Below are positions 5,216-56,000 of a stretch of DNA of 64,000 bases, piece after piece. Below the pieces are notes generated by a model, which did not search any database, was not told where the DNA came from, and worked only from the letters and a program-made list of their open reading frames with translations. The number at the start of each line of letters is the position of its first letter. The stretch's first letter is position 1. The stretch is taken from NCBI GenBank assembly GCA_034231615.1, contig CM067298.1, positions 63,795,729-63,859,728 on the forward strand, written 5' to 3'. Source of the DNA: Meghimatium bilineatum (lineage: Eukaryota > Mollusca > Gastropoda > Stylommatophora > Philomycidae). A program made the position numbers and the translations under genes.

Positions 5216-5540
5216 GATGAAAGTTGACACCACAATCCCCTATGAGCTTAATCGCGATAATGATGTGCGCGACATAAAACCACGCCTACGAGTTTACATT
5301 CTAAATTAGTTATCTCAACTATTATCTGAGATTGGTTTAAACAAGTAGTCGCATGTGGTTGCAGTGCACCCCCCCCCCCCCACGGCCACACACACACCGT
5401 ATAATTAAAATTGAACTATAAAGCGTACGGCTAATCAATCAGTACACTAACAACAGTAATGTCGTATGCCGCTATTTTATATGTATATATTCCTTAGAAT
5501 ATAGAATATTCTAAGATATTCTAAGATAATATTAATAGGG
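5216..5540. other. Low-complexity spacer
   Basis: Contains a C homopolymer of about 12 at 5371-5382 followed by a short CA-rich tract. No coding signal. Confidence 0.6.
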
Positions 5541-5830
5541 AGAAAATCATGGAAAGAGATACAAATAAAAGAAAAACAAATAAAGAAGTGCTAAAGACAC
5601 TTAATATGAAGAAAGAACTACTACGAGAAATAAAGATCAGGCTTACTTGAAGATAAAGTCAAAGGGAGGCGAGCAAGAGTTAGGCAGCGATACAAGTGGG
5701 AGAGTAACATAACACGATGGACAGATTGCAGTCTAGCAGAGTACACCACCAAGACAAGTGATAGACGATGTTGGAGATCCGTTGCAGCCAGCCTTCGTTG
5801 CGGAGACTGCACTTGATGATGATGGTATTC
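5541..5830 (+). mobile_element. LINE-A C-terminal fragment
   Basis: The translation shows NKEVLKTLNMKKELLREIKI, a collapsed region where GHIKRHDTLL would lie, then remnants of RGRQRYKWESNIT and RCWRSVAAS-LRCGD in shifted frames. It ends with a (GAT)-type tail (TTGATGATGATGG) seen on other LINE-A copies. Several frameshifts; dead. Confidence 0.75.
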
Positions 5831-14235: not shown

Positions 14236-14331
14236 TTGAAATTCACTTTCTGCAATAATGTTGCGCCCCCCCCCCATTATTTTAGAATGAGCTGGAAGGA
14301 CTAGTTAACACACATGTTCAAGAGATTACTA

Positions 14332-14363
14332 TAGTCCGTTCAGAATCGTTTGCCGAGATGTTA
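14332..14363 (+). repeat. Left 32-bp terminal inverted repeat
   Basis: Begins TAGTCCGTTCAGAATCGTTT. Identical over 32 bp to the reverse complement of 16670-16701, then the sequences diverge. Presumed transposase binding and cleavage site. Confidence 0.95.
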
Positions 14364-14639
14364 TGATTTATAATTCAAAAAGTTCTTGATGATTTCACAT
14401 GAATTTTGGCATACGTTGTTAAAATGTCCATGTCGCGAAAACATATGTGTTACTTGATGTCTAGCTGTAACGGTTATTTGAAAGCGGCGAATTCTTTTGA
14501 TGTTTGCCCATGTAAATATTATTTCGACCATAAACAAAATATTTTACAGTAATCTAGTGCAATGATGACCCATAGGCGTGTCCACAAAATTTTACATGGT
14601 GGCAGGTGTAAAAAAAATTTAAAATATATCTTTTGTTCG

Positions 14640-14850
14640 TAGAGTCAATTTGATATTGTTCCATGCTCTTGGTGTGAGTTTCACAAATGTTGTCGCTGCC
14701 TTTGAAATAAGTACATATATTTCTTCATGTAAGGAAATTTTGTCTGTAATAGTTGATCCAAGATATCTGAACTTCTGTATTGAATCAAGCGGGCTAATTT
14801 TTATAAGTAATGGTTGATGGTTTGCTTATAACATTTTTTTGAATTGCTTG
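14640..14850 (-). mobile_element. LINE fragment carried inside the intact transposon
   Basis: The minus-strand reading gives ISPLDSIQKFRYLGSTITDK, then EEIYVLISKAATTFVKLTPR and AWNNIKLTLRTKDI. This is the conserved LINE region just after the reverse transcriptase catalytic core (F.YLGSTIT...EI..RI.KA...F..L....W.N..L...TK). It lies between the transposase stop codon and the left terminal repeat, in the same orientation as the transposase. Boundaries and TSD are not resolved. Confidence 0.65.
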
Positions 14851-14940
14851 GGTGGTATTGAGCAATGAAATGTTTTACAAATCAACTTGTAAATTTTGCA
14901 AATCAAACTTTTTTTAGTGTAGACTTAATCAGAGTAATGA

Positions 14941-16209
14941 TCATTCATAATCAGACGAGTCAAATAGGTCGATTACTGTTTTCGGCTGAACAAACAACAA
15001 ACCTTCCTTTTTCCAATATTCCTCTTCTTGGCGTAACACATGATCCTCACATTTCACCCAGTAGTCTTTATGTATATTTGATAGAGCCTGATTTGTAAGA
15101 GTCTCAATATCACATAATTTGAAAGTTGTATTTGTAGATGCTACGTGTCCTTTAACTTTTGCCCAAATTAGCTCTATAGGATTTAAGTGTGCATGATATG
15201 GAGGTAGTCTCAAACATCTATGACCATGTTCTTCAATTAACTTGTCTATTTTAAATATCTTTGTTCGTTGTGTCTGTTTTACAAGGTTAAGCAATTCGGG
15301 TTTCAAGTACCTGTCGGTAAATGGTATGTGTTCTTTTATGAGCCACGTTTTGATTGCATCTTTTGTACTTGATGATGTTGGGATTCTATCTTCTACGTTC
15401 ACTACGTTATGGTATGAAGCATTGTCCATTATCAGACAAGAAGGTCTATCTAATATTGGAAGAATACTTTTTTCGATCCAGTCTTCGAATATGTGCCCAT
15501 TCATTTCGGAGTGGTAGTCTCTATTGTCAATGGATTTTGAAATGAAAATTAGATGAGCATTCTGCAACAACCCATTATGTCTGCTACCTGCATGTGCAAC
15601 TATCAAACGTTGCCCTTTACTACTTGGTACTGATCTTTTAATACTTCCATCTGCTAACTGCCATTCCTTTTCATTTGTATGATGAGCGTTGATCCAAGTT
15701 TCATCTAAATACACAATATCATAACCATTCCCTTCACGTAAATACTTGCTTCTAAGAGCTACCAGATGTGGCTTTTCACAAATAATGTTTTTTCCACCAG
15801 CATACTTTCTAAAGGTGAAGCCTGCATTTCTTACAGTTTTCCATAATAAAGTTTTTGATATTTCAATGTCGTTATTAGTTTTCAGCCAAATCTTCAACTT
15901 TCTAAGTGTCACTTCTTCGTTTTTATCAAACATTCTACATATTTCTCTTTTTACTAGGTCCTTATCGAAACTGTCTATCTTTTCTTTCCTTCCTTGCTTT
16001 CGTGAATTTGTTGGCAATAAATATCCGCTTGCTTCCACTATTCGATCAAATGAACGTTTACACAAACCTAAAATATGCATTGTTCTCTTCTCAGGATTTG
16101 ATAAAGAACAATAAAGATGTCCCTTTTTACGCTCTCTGCAGAAGTATTGATAAATCTTTATAGCAATGTTATGCTCAGTAAAATATTTCGCTTTCAGATT
16201 CATTCTCAC
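14941..16209 (-). CDS. DDE transposase, IS630/Tc1/mariner superfamily, widely spaced DD83E
   Basis: A 422-residue uninterrupted frame that starts at ATG 16209 and stops at 14941. The protein should bind the element's inverted repeats and catalyse cut-and-paste transposition at TA sites in the nucleus. The N-terminal half (about 40-135) is basic and helix-rich, with a likely helix-turn-helix around FDKDLVKREICRMFDKNEEV and LRKLKIWLKTNNDIEISKTL. The catalytic domain follows: D169 in YLDETWIN, D262 in LIMDNASYHN and E346 in HLNPIELIWAKVK. There are 83 residues between D262 and E346, far more than the 34-41 of Tc1, mariner, maT or rosa types. I recall a DD82E group called Sailor with similarly wide spacing, and this could be a member, but I cannot check that. 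All catalytic residues are present and the family blocks (RPSCLIMDN, LPPYHAHLNPIE) are well kept. A methionine at residue 3 is an alternative start. I see no intron. Promoter elements would lie in 16210-16669 but none is obvious. Confidence 0.92.
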   Translation of the reverse strand: MRMNLKAKYFTEHNIAIKIYQYFCRERKKGHLYCSLSNPEKRTMHILGLCKRSFDRIVEASGYLLPTNSRKQGRKEKIDSFDKDLVKREICRMFDKNEEVTLRKLKIWLKTNNDIEISKTLLWKTVRNAGFTFRKYAGGKNIICEKPHLVALRSKYLREGNGYDIVYLDETWINAHHTNEKEWQLADGSIKRSVPSSKGQRLIVAHAGSRHNGLLQNAHLIFISKSIDNRDYHSEMNGHIFEDWIEKSILPILDRPSCLIMDNASYHNVVNVEDRIPTSSSTKDAIKTWLIKEHIPFTDRYLKPELLNLVKQTQRTKIFKIDKLIEEHGHRCLRLPPYHAHLNPIELIWAKVKGHVASTNTTFKLCDIETLTNQALSNIHKDYWVKCEDHVLRQEEEYWKKEGLLFVQPKTVIDLFDSSDYE

Positions 16210-16669
16210 ATAGACTTGCAGAAGGTAATATGCTTAGTGCCGCCTACATTCTGTAAATATTGAGACGTGCCTCTGACTTGTGACTTGAAATCGAGTCAAT
16301 ATCCATTTTTGATTTCACATAATTCTAAGTTCAGGAAAAATAATATTTGGTGCTAAACGGGAATTTCCATATGTAACATTGCTTTATACAAATGTACAGT
16401 GGAAACAACTACTTTTAGAACGGTGCACATTCTACCGTGAGGGTCATGCCTTTATATTTAATAATCAGATGTGAGATGTAAGCATCTACATAATCCAGCG
16501 GTTGTTTATAATTTAGATTAACTTTTTTTTAATATAGGTTAAATAAGGTATCTTTGATACTGGATCACATTTCTTTGATAAAAAAATATTTCTATAGCGA
16601 CATTATTATTCTAAACCTAACTTCAAATGATGAATCCAAATGAACAATACGTTTTTGATAAAAATAATT

Positions 16670-16701
16670 TAACATCTCGGCAAACGATTCTGAACGGACT
16701 A
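16670..16701 (-). repeat. Right 32-bp terminal inverted repeat
   Basis: Perfect inverted copy of 14332-14363, ending in GAACGGACTA before the TA duplication at 16702-16703. Confidence 0.95.
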
Positions 16702-16777
16702 TAGAAATAATTGTAATATTGAAAATATTTCTGCTCCCTTTAAAGTAGAAATATAACTATTAGCAATGATAATCAAG

Positions 16778-20299: not shown

Positions 20300-21195
20300 C
20301 TTTTGGCGAAAATCTTCTATTTAAAATCTACACAGTGAATATCTTTAAACATATACAAGGAATACTAGGACTCAAGACCATTGGGAAAATAAACAATCTG
20401 AGATATGCATATGACACTGTCCTTTTATCAGAAAGTGAACACGAATTGGAAAGACTAACAGACCAAGTCGATAAATCAAGTAAAGAATATGGACTGGATA
20501 TATACATCTAAAAAAATAAAAACCATTATAAGCAACAGTCACATAAGAACATGTTCTAAACATAAAAATAAATGGAGAGCAACTACAACAAGTAGAACCA
20601 TATCATTATTTACGGACACCTAATCACACATGATAGCAGATGTGAAATAGAAGTTAAAGAAGGTAATATAAATGGCTAAAAGTACTTTCAATGACATGCG
20701 GAAAATATTAATATCAAAACAAATTACAAACAAGCTAAAATTGAGAATTATAAAATGCCACATCTTCTCTATATTAATGTATGACTCAGAGATATAAAGA
20801 ACAAACAAACAATTAGAAGACATAATTGATGCATTTGAGATGTGGATATATATAGAACAATTGGGTGACACCACGGAAAAAGGAAAAAAAATATACAAAC
20901 ATAGAAGTTCTAACACAACTTCGCATAAAGAAAGAACTATTAAAGGAAATAAATATCAAACAAATGAAATATTTTGGACATATCAAAAGACATGCTACCT
21001 TGTTGAAAACCTTACTTGAGTTTAAAGTCGAGGTGATACGTGCAAGAGGGAGACAGAGATACAAGTGGTAGAGTAACATCACCAAATGGACAGGTTACAG
21101 TCTAGCAGAGTACACCACTAACATAAGAGACAGTTTATGTTGGAGGTTTGTTGCAGCCAAACATCTTTGCGGAGGCAACTTAATGATGATGGTGA
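20300..21195 (+). mobile_element. LINE-A, reverse transcriptase remnant to 3' end, decayed
   Basis: The translation starts [20 protein letters not shown], then [20 protein letters not shown], where the YADD box has become YAYD, and [14 protein letters not shown]. Later blocks appear in shifting frames: LISKQITNKLKLRIIKC, GHIKRHATLLKTLLE, RGRQRYKW and a TTAATGATGATGG tail. Many frameshifts. This is one of the two longest LINE-A copies in the window (with 55005-56000). Confidence 0.8.
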
Positions 21196-21854: not shown

Positions 21855-22384
21855 CCATACACATCTATCAGAGAAAAACACGAAAATCAGTATAATTTCA
21901 TACACATCTATCAGAGAAAAACACGAATATTTTCACGATTCCATACACATCTATCAGAGAAAAACACGAAAATATTCGCGATTCCATACACATCTATCAG
22001 AGACAAACACGGAAATCTTCACTATTCCATACACATCTATCAGAGACAAACACGGAAATCTTCACTATTCCATACACATCTATCAGAGACAAACACGGAA
22101 ATCTTCATGATTCCATACACATCTTAGACAAACACGGAAACAATCACGATTATATGAACATCTATCAGAGAAAAACACGGAAACATTCACGAGTCCATAC
22201 TCATCTATCAGAGACACAGACGAAAACTTTCGCAGTTCCATGTATATCTATCAGAGGCCCACACACAGAAAGCTTCACCACTCCATACACATCTGTCAGA
22301 GACAAACAAGGAAACAATCACTATTCTATGCACATCTATCAGAGAAAAACACGGAAACCAGCATGATTTCATACACATCTATCA
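21855..22384. repeat. 43-bp minisatellite, left half (about 12 copies)
   Basis: The unit is built around CATACACATCTATCAGAGA and AAACACGGAAATCTTCACG. Starts at 22028 and 22071 give 43 bp. The array is cut at 22384 by LINE-E and continues at 23094. Confidence 0.93.
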
Positions 22385-23093
22385 ATAAGAGCAAAATCTT
22401 GGTAAACAGCAGAGACACAGAAAACCAGACTAATATCATGATGAATGGACATAAGCTTGAAGAGGTGAATACCTTCAAATATCTCGGATCCAGTATATGC
22501 AGCGATGGTAAATGCAAAGCAGAACTAAAAATAAGGCTGGAGATGGCTTTAGCGTCCTTGTCAAGGCTAACTGTGATTTGGAAAAGCAACATCAGTGTTG
22601 GAGTGAAAATCAAACTGTATAGGTCGCTGGTGCTTTCCGTTGTGTTGTATGGTTGTGAGAGTTGGACACTCACTGCGGACATGGAGAGAAGATTACAGGC
22701 TTTCGAGTATAAATGCTACAGAAGAATTCTACGAATTTCCTATAGGGAACATAAGACTAATGTGTACGTAAGAAATAAAGTAGAGATGTGTGCAGGTGTC
22801 CAGGAGCCATTGCTTTCAATAGTGAAACGACGAAAACTAGCATGGTTCGGACATGTATGCAGGCACGATTCCTTGTCAAAAACAATACTGCAGGGAACTG
22901 TCGAGGGTGGAAGAAGCAGAGGAGGGCAAATAAAGACATGGACAGACAACATCAAGGAATGGACAGGGCTAGATATTTCCACACTCATCCGCATCGCTGA
23001 GGATAGAATTCGCTGGAGGACTCTGTCTGCTGAAGCTTCCAATGTGGTACCCCTACGACCCTGAAGGGTTATGGGTTTTATTGATATTAATTG
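22385..23093 (+). mobile_element. LINE-E insertion (5' truncated, frame intact)
   Basis: About 227 codons remain open to a stop at 23062-23064. Blocks: EEVNTFKYLGSSICSDGKCK, LYRSLVLSVVLYGCESWTLT, YKCYRRILRISYREHKTN, RKLAWFGHVCRHDSLSKTIL and KTWTDNIKEWTGLDIS, ending SNVVPLRP. The reverse transcriptase core and endonuclease are missing. The insert interrupts the 43-bp minisatellite. A 47-bp stretch is identical on both sides (22338-22384 and 23094-23140), consistent with an unusually long TSD. The open frame suggests a recent event. A decayed copy is at 29945-30685. Confidence 0.88.
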
Positions 23094-36484: not shown

Positions 36485-36990
36485 TACATATCTTCTATAT
36501 CATCATCATCATTAAGTGCCGTCTCCGCAACGAAGGTTGGCTGCGACGTATCACCAACATCTCCTGTCTCTTGTCTTGGTGGTGCACTCTGCTAGACTGT
36601 AACCTGTCAATCGTGTAATGTTACTCTCCCACTTGTATCTCTGCCTACCTCTTGCTCGCTTCCCTTTGACTTTACCCTCAAGTAAGGTATTCAATAAGGT
36701 GTCATGTCTTTTAATATGTCCAAAGTATTTTATTTGCCTGATCTTTATTTCTTTTAGTAGTTCTTTCTTCATATTAAGTGTCTTTAGCACCTCTTTATTT
36801 GTTTTCTTCTCTTTCCATGATGTTCTCTCTATTCGTCTATATACCCACATCTCAAAGGCATCAATTTTGTCTTCTAATTGTTTATTTAGTGTCCATGTTT
36901 CTGAGCCATACATTAATATGGAATAGATGTAGCATTTTATAATTCTCATTTTTAACTTGTGTGTAATTTGTTTAGATATTAATATCTTAT
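36485..36990 (-). mobile_element. LINE-A C-terminal fragment, frame largely open
   Basis: 132 open codons (36949-36551): MRIIKCYIYSILMYGSETWT, FEMWVYRRIERTSWKEKKTN, QIKYFGHIKRHDTLLNTLLE and RARGRQRYKWESNITRLTGY, ending TRDRRCW. After a stop come FVAET and a (GAT)n tail (36505-36513). The best-kept LINE-A in the window and a good family reference. Its 5' end runs into the 24-bp satellite. Confidence 0.88.
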
Positions 36991-37680
36991 ATAGTCTCGA
37001 TAAATATCGTCTGTATAATAGTTATACATATCTTCTGAAGTGTTTCGTTGCATAACTTTGTAATGCACCTATAAATATATTCTGTTGTGTACTGATACTT
37101 AGCTTTTATAGTGTATCGTTATATATCGTCTGTAGTGTACCAATACAAATCTTCTGTAATGTACCAATACATATCTTCTGTAGTGTACCAATACATATCT
37201 TCTGTAGTGTACCAATACATATCTTCTGTAGTGTACCAATACATATCTTCTGTAGTGTACCAATACATATCTTCTGTAATGTACCAATACATATCTTCTG
37301 TAGTGTACCAATACATATCTTCTGTAGTGTACCAATACATATCTTCTGTAGTGTACCAATACATATCTTCTGTAGTGTACCAATACATATCTTCTGTAAT
37401 GTACCAATACATATCTTCTGTAGTGTACCAATACATATCTTCTGTAGTGTACCAATACATATCTTCTGTAGTGTACCAATACATATCTTCTGTACTGTAC
37501 CAATACATATCTTCTGTAGTGTACCAATACATATCGTCTTTAGTGTACCAATACATATAGATTTATGTTGTGTACTAATAGATATATTCTGTAGAGAACT
37601 AACACATATCATCTGTAGTGTACTAATACATATCCTCTGTATTGTACCAATACAAATCTTCTGTAGTCTACCAATACAAA
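36990..37680. repeat. 24-bp minisatellite, first block, with 120-bp higher-order period
   Basis: The core 37111-37560 consists of units with GTGTACCAATACATATCTTC. A variant (TGTAAT in place of TGTAGT) recurs at 37155, 37275 and 37395, exactly 120 bp apart, i.e. every fifth unit. Flanks (36990-37110 and 37560-37680) are diverged copies. Open frames in several phases are artefacts of a 24-bp period. Confidence 0.95.
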
Positions 37681-38270
37681 TTTATGTAGTGTACCAATAC
37701 ATATCTCCTGTAGTGTATCGAGAAATATTTTATGTATTGTACCGAGACATATCTTCTATAATGTACTGTGACATATCTTCTATAGTGTACCGTGACATAT
37801 CTTCTATAGTGTACCGAGACATATCTTCTATGGTGTACCGAGACATATCTTCTATAGTGTACCGAGTCATATCTTCTATAGTGTACCGAGACATATCTTC
37901 TATAGTGTACCGAAACATATCTTCTATAGTGTACCGTGACATATCTTCTATAGTGTACCGAGACATATCTTCTATGGTGTACCGAGACATATCTTCTATA
38001 GTGTACCGAGTCATATCTTCTATGGTGTACCGAGACATATCTTCTATGGTGTACCGAGACATATCTTCTATAGTGTACCGAGTCATATCTTCTATGGTGT
38101 ACCGAGACATATCTTCTATAGTGTACCGAGTCATATCTTCTATAGTGTACCGAGACATATCTTCTATAGTGTACCGTGACATATCTTCTATAGTGTACTG
38201 AGACATATCTTCTGTAGTATATCGAATTATATCTTCTGTAGTGTGTCCAGACTGAAAATATAAATACAAT
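37681..38270. repeat. 24-bp minisatellite, second block (variant family)
   Basis: About 22 units with GTGTACCGAGACATATCTTC. Variants GTGAC, GGTGTACC and GAGTCAT follow one another in the same order in units 3-6 and 9-12, suggesting a 144-bp higher-order step. It is clearly related to the first block but has its own diagnostic bases (TATAG versus TGTAG; CGAGAC versus CAATAC). Confidence 0.93.
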
Positions 38271-39060
38271 ATCTTCTCTAATTGGAAATTGTGTAGATAG
38301 AGTCACACATTCTGAACGACATACACATTATTAAACACACACAAGTATTTTCAGACAGAAATAAAACAGAGTGACCTCTATAATTGCAGGAAGTAAGAAA
38401 GACTGGTGTTTGCGTGAAGTACATAAAGTTTTTGTGAAATAATTTGGTGCTTTAATAAACGGGCAGCGCAAGAATAGATGAGAGACGGAAGAAAAGTATG
38501 ACTTTAATAGAAATAAGAAGTAGACACCGCAATACTAACTAAGCTCAGAGAGATATAAAATAGATAATTGGATATATTTTCTGTACACGACCACAATGAG
38601 TCATGTCAGGGGATTTTTAAGACAACTTGGATGTATATCTTTGAAGAGACACACATGTGCATCTGATATTAACGACAGCAGATATAAATTCCCAAGTATT
38701 TCCACAGAGAGAAATAGAATAAATAATATGAATATTTAAATAAACACGAGTTGTAAACAAACGGTTTTATACATCATGGTTCATTACACAAACGGGATAT
38801 AGCATTAGATAACCTTTTATTCTCCTTCATTATTGGCTTTTTTTTTAGAGTAATACTACATCAATCACTAATGTACTGCCTCAAAGGACTACAAGGTTTG
38901 ACTTGATTCTACTCGAGTTTCCCATGTGTGTTACATTTTTCTAATTAGTTAAACAATGACCCTTACGAGAGTATAACTCAGAGGCAATAACTCCGTAGCT
39001 TAAGTGGTAATTCTCCTTGCACCTTTATCAAATTGAACCTGTTTTTTTTTTTTTTTTAAA
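38271..39060. other. Unassigned AT-rich sequence
   Basis: No gene is recognised. A T run of about 16 lies at 39041-39056. Confidence 0.45.
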
Positions 39061-49160: not shown

Positions 49161-49950
49161 GTGGGTACAAGATTCCAGAAATATGATACCCTGACAGTTC
49201 TCCTTACTACACATCCTGAGGGACTGAAACAGCTAATCACAATAACAAAGAAATACAGCAAGATCCAAACCCTATATCGAAACGCACAGAAAACAAACAT
49301 TATAACAACAAGAAAAACATACATCAAAGTGATAAACAACATAGACAATATAGAACTGGAATGTTTATACAAATACGAATATCTGGGAGCAAATATAAAC
49401 AGTTCCGGAGATTGTTCAGTCGAGATTATAAGAAGACTCACAATTTCAACACTCAAATTAACACAAATGAGAAAGCTGTGGCAAAATAGTAATAACAATA
49501 CTAAAGTAACTCTTCTAAGAGCATGTGTTTTCCCAGTGGCCACATACAGATGCAAGACTTGGACTTTAAACACGGCAATATCCAAAAAATTTTATTCTTT
49601 TGAAATGAAGTGCTACAAACAGATCCTACGAATAACATGGACAGAGAACAAGAAGAACATTGAAATGTTAAAATTAGTAAAACTAAATCAATGGTGGCGT
49701 TCAAATACCATCATAAGAAGGAAGCTACATTATTTTCGGCACTTAAAGAGGCATGATGGTATTGAATGGTTTATTTTGACAGTATGTAAGGTGAGAGAGA
49801 GGAAGAGGAAGACCACGAAGATGATGGACCAGCGACATCGAATAATGTATGCACAGGTCTCTGACCATGCAGATCTGATTGCAAGGGACAAAGAGTCGTT
49901 CAGAGAAGTATCAATGATGAAGACTACGTTCTGTAAAGAATATGTCACTT

Positions 49951-49953
<3 letters not shown>
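49161..49953 (+). mobile_element. LINE-F, post-catalytic region, 263-codon open frame
   Basis: It begins in a damaged catalytic box (YDTLTVLLTTHPEGLKQLIT; YADD lost), then NAQKTNIITTRKTYIKVINN, YKYEYLGANINSSGDCSVEI, TYRCKTWTLNTAISKKFYSF, MKCYKQILRITWTENKKN and HYFRHLKRHDGIEW, ending CKEYVT and a stop. The frame is uninterrupted, but a missing active site and 5' end make it non-functional. A (TA)n tract starts immediately after the stop. Confidence 0.82.
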
Positions 49954-55004: not shown

Positions 55005-56000
55005 TCATCATCATCATAAATGATGCAACAGACCTCCAACATTCCCTGTCTCTTGTTTTGGTGGTGCACTCTGCTAGACTGTAATCAGTCCATCGTGAGA
55101 TGCTACTCTCCCACTTCTATCTCTGCCTACCTCTTGCTAGCTCCCTTTTGACTTTACCCTCAAGTAAGGTAGTGAATGAGGTGCCATGTCTTTTAAAGTG
55201 ACCAAAGTATTTTTTTGCTTGATCGTTATTTCTCATTGTAATTCTTTCTTCATATTAAGTGTTTTAAGAACCTCTTTGTTTATTTTCTTGCATTGATGTT
55301 CTCCTTATTATTCTATATACCCACATCCCAAAGGCATAAATTATATCTTTTAATTTGTTTAGTGTCCGTATTTCTGAGCCATACAGTAATATAGGATAGA
55401 TGTAACATTTTATAATTCTCATTTTTAACTTATTTATAAATTGTATAGATGTTACTATTTTCCTCAAAACATTGAAGGTACTTTTAGCCATTCCTATTCT
55501 CCTTTTAATTTCTGTTTCACATCTGCCGTAATGTGTGACTATTTCTCCAAAATATTGATAATGTTTTTGTTTGTTGTAGTTTCTTTCCGTGTATATTTAT
55601 GTTCAGATCTTGTTCTTCTGTGTCTTTGCTGATTAAAAGTTTTTTTTGTTTTTTTTTTTATTTGTGTTGGATATTAATATCCAGTACCTATTGTTTACCT
55701 GATTTATTGACTTGATCTATTAGTCTTTGTAGCTCACTTTCTGCTAAAAGAACAGTGTCATCTGCATATCTAAGGTTGTTTATTATACTCCCACTGATAT
55801 TGAGTCATGGCATTCCTTCTATATATTTAAAGATATTCTCTGTGTAGATATTAAATAGGCTTGGTGATAAAATGCATCCTTGTCTTATCCCTCTTCAAAT
55901 TTCTATGTATGGTGAGTAGCTTTTTTCACACCTTATTGATGTAGTTTGTTCCAAATATATAAGTATTTGTAATCATTTTGATGTCTTTTCCATCTATGCC
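55005..56000 (-). mobile_element. LINE-A, reverse transcriptase remnant to 3' end
   Basis: The minus-strand reading, mixed frames, gives LRYADDTVLLAESELQRLI with an intact YADD box (about 55780-55720), INKLKMRIIKCYIYPILLYG, SEIRTLNKL, CGY-RIIRRTSMQENK and KEVLKTLNMKKEL, then RHD-L and TTKTRDRECWRSVAS with a (GAT)n tail near 55010. A single long copy with many frameshifts. Confidence 0.85.

Follow-up and report, generated by a model that had tools for sequence, protein, structure and literature searches.

A young, high-copy Sailor/Submariner-type transposon family in Meghimatium bilineatum and a copy whose transposase frame was probably reopened secondarily

In Tc1/mariner transposons the spacing of the last two residues of the catalytic triad is given as DD34-41E/D (PMC8533490), and two groups with wider spacing have been described. 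Submariner elements (Sun et al. 2015, PMC4495683) have a spacer of 75-86 residues, are reported from all three domains, including elements in amoebae and miniature inverted-repeat transposable elements (MITEs) in Pandoravirus, and duplicate a TA at their target, as revealed there by paralogous empty sites. Sailor elements (Shi et al. 2021, PMC8533490) are characterised as DD82E with a range of DD78-111E, DD83E being termed frequent, and are reported to have a 4-bp TATA target-site duplication. For ISY100, a cyanobacterial element of the IS630 family, cut-and-paste transposition at TA, cleavage two nucleotides inside the 5' ends and a TATATA donor junction have been described (PMC2170065). Here we analyse a DD83E transposon in a stretch of 64,000 nucleotides (the window) from the gastropod Meghimatium bilineatum (assembly GCA_034231615.1, contig CM067298.1, positions 63,795,729 to 63,859,728 of the forward strand), which an earlier note made from the letters of this stretch had taken for an intact autonomous element with an unusual catalytic spacing. 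By comparison with its sister copies in the 1.61-Gb genome (32 contigs, one assembly) we consider it highly probable that the element belongs to a young, high-copy Sailor/Submariner family, that the window copy is frame-restored from a subfamily carrying a 5-bp deletion, and that its protein is probably impaired. The element consists of the following parts, in window coordinates:

14330..14331, no strand: left target-site duplication TA, from the letters and, as TA, from the empty sites of other copies
14332..16701, minus strand: Sailor/Submariner-type DNA transposon of 2,370 bp with its transposase on the minus strand, from sequence and family comparison
14332..14363, plus strand: 32-bp terminal inverted repeat nearer to the 3' end of the gene, from sequence and genome count
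14941..16203, minus strand: transposase frame, 420 aa from the first ATG (422 from the GTG at 16209), with DDE_3 and a predicted RNase-H transposase fold
15172..15174, minus strand: catalytic Glu codon, E344 from the ATG (E346 in the earlier note), 83 residues past the second Asp
15424..15426, minus strand: second catalytic Asp codon, D260 (D262 in the earlier note)
15703..15705, minus strand: first catalytic Asp codon, D167 (D169 in the earlier note)
15725..15739, minus strand: double-deletion site, a GTGAA unit and 10 bp missing, net loss of five residues, frame open
16670..16701, minus strand: 32-bp terminal inverted repeat nearer to the 5' end of the gene, from sequence and genome count
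16702..16703, no strand: right target-site duplication TA, from the letters and the empty sites of other copies

The left end, TAGTCCGTTCAGAATCGTTTGCCGAGATGTTA at 14332-14363, has its exact reverse complement at 16670-16701 with a TA outside each, as described earlier, and a count of the ends in the genome, which the earlier note had proposed, gave 1,138 exact matches to their inner 30 bases against none for the reversed control pattern, so that the inverted ends cannot be due to chance. The longest frame (14941-16209, minus strand) comprises 422 codons from a GTG or 420 codons (14941-16203) from the first ATG and contains the three catalytic residues where they had been placed, D169, D262 and E346. 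Its product matches Pfam DDE_3 (E 4e-15), with an IS630 match below threshold (78.6 bits against a cut-off of 100), and carries the triad in the motifs IVYLDET(W), LIMDNA(S) and HAHLNPIEL. An RNase-H transposase fold is predicted for it, fold matches being obtained for the window model and for its 425-aa relative P0001, and helices are predicted at 286-295, 306-315 and 323-330, between the second D and the E. The assignment to the IS630-Tc1-mariner-type DDE transposons with a TA target holds. A named relative of the transposase comes from Bradybaena similaris; PF27940 is found on most of the 120 homologues listed and was not reported by the Pfam search of the window protein.

The spacing itself is not unusual, since DD83E is ordinary in Sailor/Submariner: it is 83 in both the window protein and P0001, and 80-86 in all 85 aligned proteins. 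The reference to a DD82E Sailor group in the earlier note is in agreement with motifs and spacing. Like Sailor (PMC8533490), the element combines a D-E spacing of 83 with a single gene and a GT after the TATA string, its motifs are by eye near the published I/VVYLDET, VIIMDNA and HCELNPIEL, and prokaryotic kin occur in Delta- and Gammaproteobacteria both here and in that report; in the prokaryote records (68 loci) 40 of the 42 frames read are DD82E, the other two being DD83E and DD86E. It likewise resembles Submariner (PMC4495683) in that 83 falls within the 75-86 spacer, in the DET/DNA/PIE residues, present as LDETW, MDNAS and LNPIEL, and in its TA target. With Tc1/mariner proper (Mos1, SETMAR, Sleeping Beauty) it shares the predicted RNase-H transposase fold and the TA target, but there are 42-49 more residues between the second D and the E.

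With respect to copy number, exact patterns across the deletion site identify the ancestral site at 632 places in the whole genome, the 5-bp deletion alone at 251 and the window allele with both the 5-bp and a 10-bp deletion at 2, together 885 typed copies; these counts are lower bounds, copies with a substitution inside the pattern being missed, and reversed controls gave zero in all four exact-pattern searches (the three alleles and the ends). The total exceeds Sailor counts named in PMC8533490, such as 341 in Timema cristinae and 219 in Haliotis rubra, which were obtained by other criteria. Three samples were compared, namely 39 further copies chosen by identity over the first 371 bp (40 of 940 candidates being scored), 20 ancestral-site copies spread over the first 100 of the 632, all on contigs C1 and C2, and 20 deleted copies spread over the first 100 of the 251, with copies from the earlier sample excluded; the tree and the distances omit the four short ones among the 81 copies. 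The full 425-aa frame is present in 11 of the 20 sampled ancestral-site copies and in none of the 20 sampled deleted ones. Median pairwise divergence amounts to 0.54% among 19 ancestral-site copies, 0.39% among the 20 deleted copies and 0.67% between the groups, means being inflated by misaligned gapped copies. The family is young, large and mostly full-length, and the recent activity proposed earlier for the window copy can be upheld for the family, which is very likely active now or was so in the past, current activity being probable.

On contig C1, where 81 of the 100 end matches listed (of 1,138) lay, 33 exact end pairs were formed, 15 of the 81 matches staying unpaired; 32 pairs span 2,222-2,389 bp and one spans 3,901 bp. 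The short deletion derivatives that the earlier note had suggested looking for are absent from these 33 pairs, none of which is of MITE length, in contrast to the Pandoravirus MITEs of Submariner (PMC4495683), with the proviso that derivatives with changed ends would escape. The 3,901-bp pair coincides with copy L035 and is probably a nested insertion. Codon-position counts gave no clear sign of selection among the copies. The deleted copies listed on C1 all lie past 52.8 Mb (15 of 15), as against 64 ancestral-site copies spread over 4-130 Mb (Kolmogorov-Smirnov test, p 0.009, one contig, exploratory), a skew that could be due to local hopping or mixed ancestry.

The history of the window copy can be read just before the first catalytic D, where its relatives and most other genomic copies examined are 5 bp or 15 bp longer. 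Ancestral copies carry GTGAAGTGAAGGGAATGCGCGAGAATGG directly before the first catalytic strand. In deleted copies one GTGAA unit is missing and the frame typically stops after 164 residues, in a few even earlier via further changes, and they contain a second frame of 265 residues which has its own methionine at the domain border and spans the catalytic part. The window copy has the same 5-bp deletion and, a few bases on, 10 bp fewer between GAATG repeats, the exact placement of the deletions being ambiguous inside these short repeats. The tree, which comprises 77 copies, has the window copy and L122 as sisters (support 0.905) within a cluster that also holds 42 deleted and 2 ancestral-site copies, one deleted copy falling outside. 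The window copy carries the diagnostic sites of this deleted cluster, has no private substitution among 37 aligned copies and has one site in common with L026 alone. The shared 5-bp deletion and the nesting in the deleted cluster thus suggest that it descends from the frameshifted subfamily.

L122 lies on contig C25 in flanks unlike those of the window next to the element, with a single 258-bp match of 70% further out at different distances; two differences set it apart from the window copy, namely a single substitution, which falls on a subfamily-diagnostic site, and a tandem duplication of 5 bp, through which its frame is broken. No additional copy of the double-deletion allele was found when 3 mismatches were allowed. 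To judge from these sequences, the likeliest order of events is frameshift, spread, second deletion and at least one further move or copy, and the intact look of the window copy is, on that order, secondary, the second deletion having reopened a frame broken earlier. The claim of an intact autonomous copy was overstated: the lineage shares a frameshifting 5-bp deletion, and when the 10-bp deletion brought the frame back, five residues were lost. The earlier note had named one inactivating change shared by many copies as evidence that would speak against it; such a change is found for the window lineage (251 places) and not for the family, with its full frames in about half of the sampled ancestral-site copies. 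In general terms, an open frame between perfect ends is no proof of an autonomous copy, and it was the comparison with sister copies that exposed the broken and reopened frame.

The stretch from R151 to D172 has 17 residues in the window protein as against 21-24 in 84 of 84 homologues (22 in 71 of them), and it has lost R162, an arginine that 82 of 85 retain. The five missing residues lie in the helix preceding the first catalytic strand. Comparison of the models shows helix 145-163 shortened to 145-156 and a drop in mean confidence at 151-160 from 94 to 79, with the fold kept. With these five residues lost, R162 among them, the transposase of the window copy would probably be impaired, and sequence and models together indicate a protein that is probably inactive or weak. 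An alternative hypothesis assumes that the window copy is autonomous and working, the second deletion having restored function, and that the C25 copy is its offspring or parent. In favour of this are the uninterrupted frame of 420 aa, in which the three catalytic motifs are all present, the retained fold of the model and the presence of the allele at two unrelated places, which implies that it moved or was copied after it had arisen. However, the residues were lost from a stretch of nearly fixed length, the window allele occupies 2 places only as compared with the 251 of the 5-bp deletion alone, the second copy is itself frameshifted, and full-frame ancestral-site copies are common enough for transposase to be supplied in trans; we consider this scenario unlikely. 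Hardly more credible, and if anything slightly less so, is a revival of the deleted lineage as such, which would have regained a working transposase by the second deletion after its spread to about 250 places; if true, the enzyme shorter by five residues would still function, as a variant whose linker helix is shortened.

A single complex event in an ancestral-site copy, instead of two steps via the frameshifted lineage, might also account for the 15-bp difference, as the 5-bp and 10-bp deletions are just about 7 bases apart. Yet the 5-bp part is identical to the deletion at 251 other places, the window copy sits inside the deleted cluster with its diagnostic sites, and the 10-bp loss alone was not found in the genome as an exact pattern, all of which makes a single event very improbable in comparison with descent through the frameshifted subfamily.

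The target site required separate consideration. Of 40 copies three are truncated and were excluded; among the other 37, which are full-length, 32 have a TATA string at either end, and from the window copy alone TA and TATA are ambiguous. TATA was at first adopted as target duplication from the Sailor paper and was dropped after an empty-site test, in which flanks joined with one TATA were compared with similar element-free sequence in the genome. Of 17 alignments that span the junction, 13 contain a gap of 2 bp there (one of them as two single gaps); they derive from six insertions (L020, L014, L034, L156, L038 and L025) and include the two closest pairs (96%). In one further alignment (L014/window) the gap of 2 bp falls a few bases upstream of the junction, and three (L020/L048, L017/L128 and L154/L005) are unclear there. 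The repeat invaded by L020 has 9,442 exact TA-form sites in the genome, counted with a 26-base pattern, versus one TATA-form site, which lies at C1:41158671-41158698 and could have been left by an excision or have arisen by chance; in the window this repeat occurs at 5534-5761, 20736-21130, 36567-36956 and 55049-55429. As the empty sites hold TA, the duplication is TA, as the earlier note had it, the element itself starts and ends with TA, and this terminal TA next to the target TA makes up the TATA string.

The prokaryote-record loci lead to the same result. Recognisable ends were present in 38 of the 59 loci tested, some of them weak (e.g. L063, L083, L101, L102 and L104, none of which is among the informative joins), and at the seven loci where the joined frame extends for 60 codons or more on either side (L058, L067, L075, L079, L089, L099 and L107), such a frame results from the TA join in 7/7 and from the TATA join in 0/7; below 60 codons three joins favour TATA and others TA. 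A Pfam check of four of the seven (L058, L067, L107 and L089) found a domain running through the junction in L058 (TdeIII restriction enzyme) and in L067 (integrase), two alcohol-dehydrogenase domains on either side of it in L107, and a formyltransferase match beginning past it in L089. L067 and L089 are copies in one genome, and the joined frame of L099 seems rich in arginine and may not represent a genuine gene.

That Sailor-type elements nevertheless duplicate TATA as published, the TA-only empty sites being alignment accidents, would be compatible with the TATA strings, which also flank 8 of 8 copies examined in the bacterium NaphS2, with the statement of Shi et al. (PMC8533490) and with the three unclear alignments. 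The gapped junctions, the ratio of TA-form to TATA-form sites and the bacterial joins all contradict it, and the main text of the Sailor paper holds no word beginning with 'empty' or 'paralog'; we give this explanation hardly any credence. Because the testable bacterial relatives also use TA, we read the published TATA hallmark, in which Sailor differs from the elements described here, as a flaw in the Sailor definition and not as grounds to exclude this family. By analogy, ISY100 (PMC2170065) is a biochemical precedent for an element ending in TA, as it likewise inserts at TA, and its TATATA junction suggests an element ending in TA beside a TA duplication. Corrected to TA in the animal family and in the testable bacterial relatives, the hallmark would agree with the common IS630-Tc1-mariner mechanism and provide a link to Submariner.

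Least of all can the deletions be put down to assembly or sequencing errors, for although there is a single assembly and a GTGAA tandem is a possible error site, the 5-bp allele recurs at 251 places, linked to other substitutions in the aligned copies, and the double deletion is identical at two. Starting from what is observed, namely the structure, the copy counts, the duplicated TA, the double deletion at two places and its nesting in the deleted subfamily, the following mechanism is proposed as the best explanation. Full copies, with 2,381 bp between the TATA strings and a 425-aa transposase, would bind the 32-bp ends and excise, as expected from the family, and would insert into TA with its duplication. 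In one copy a unit of the GTGAAGTGAA tandem that immediately precedes the first catalytic strand would have been lost; full-length transposase would have acted on this copy in trans and spread it to about 250 places, until a further 10-bp deletion between short repeats in one descendant reopened the frame and gave rise to the window copy and its relative on the other contig. The 164-aa DNA-binding product of the deleted copies may compete for the ends or act as a repressor.

In experimental fly populations, P elements with internal deletions have been seen to take over (PMC12393704), and here, too, defective copies would have multiplied alongside the full-length ones and perhaps at their expense; unlike the large internal deletion followed in those populations, the present case concerns a 5-bp defect whose spread is deduced from one genome. 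Work on Hsmar1 autoregulation (PMC3687335) argues that an invasion does not necessarily stop because of titration by non-autonomous copies. Both systems are parallels and not tests, and the hundreds of near-identical full and defective copies in M. bilineatum may serve as a natural case for competition between the two types.

Their spacing, their pea-aphid and nematode members and the TA target make it probable that Sailor (2021) and Submariner (2015) form a single group; the name Submariner does not occur in the main text of the Sailor paper (PMC8533490). The relatedness tree contains no named Sailor sequence and a single mariner outgroup, the host copy L166, whose branch proved far too long, so that a root placed on it was not used. 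The mariner family to which L166 belongs (PF01359) is also very numerous in the host genome, and many of its scored matches (150 of 2,616 candidates were scored) lie in open frames of about 382 codons. Two relatives from prokaryote records deserve mention: L052, whose 3.3-kb contig is recorded as that of a Bathymodiolus gill symbiont, bears an animal-type element nearly identical to P0095 (on a 181-kb contig) and is probably mussel contamination, and L073, filed under Candidatus Argoarchaeum, bears a bacterial-type relative and represents either an archaeal member or a binning error.

Elsewhere in the window, where the earlier note describes every other coding relic as broken, long open frames at 420-962 and 37106-38306 consist of short tandem repeats and are probably not genes. 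Reverse-transcriptase-like relics are found at 22240-23064 (274 open codons) and 49161-49952 (263 open codons, judged by eye), the first having named relatives in Nucella lapillus, Elysia marginata and Apostichopus japonicus, of which the gastropod Nucella scores best.
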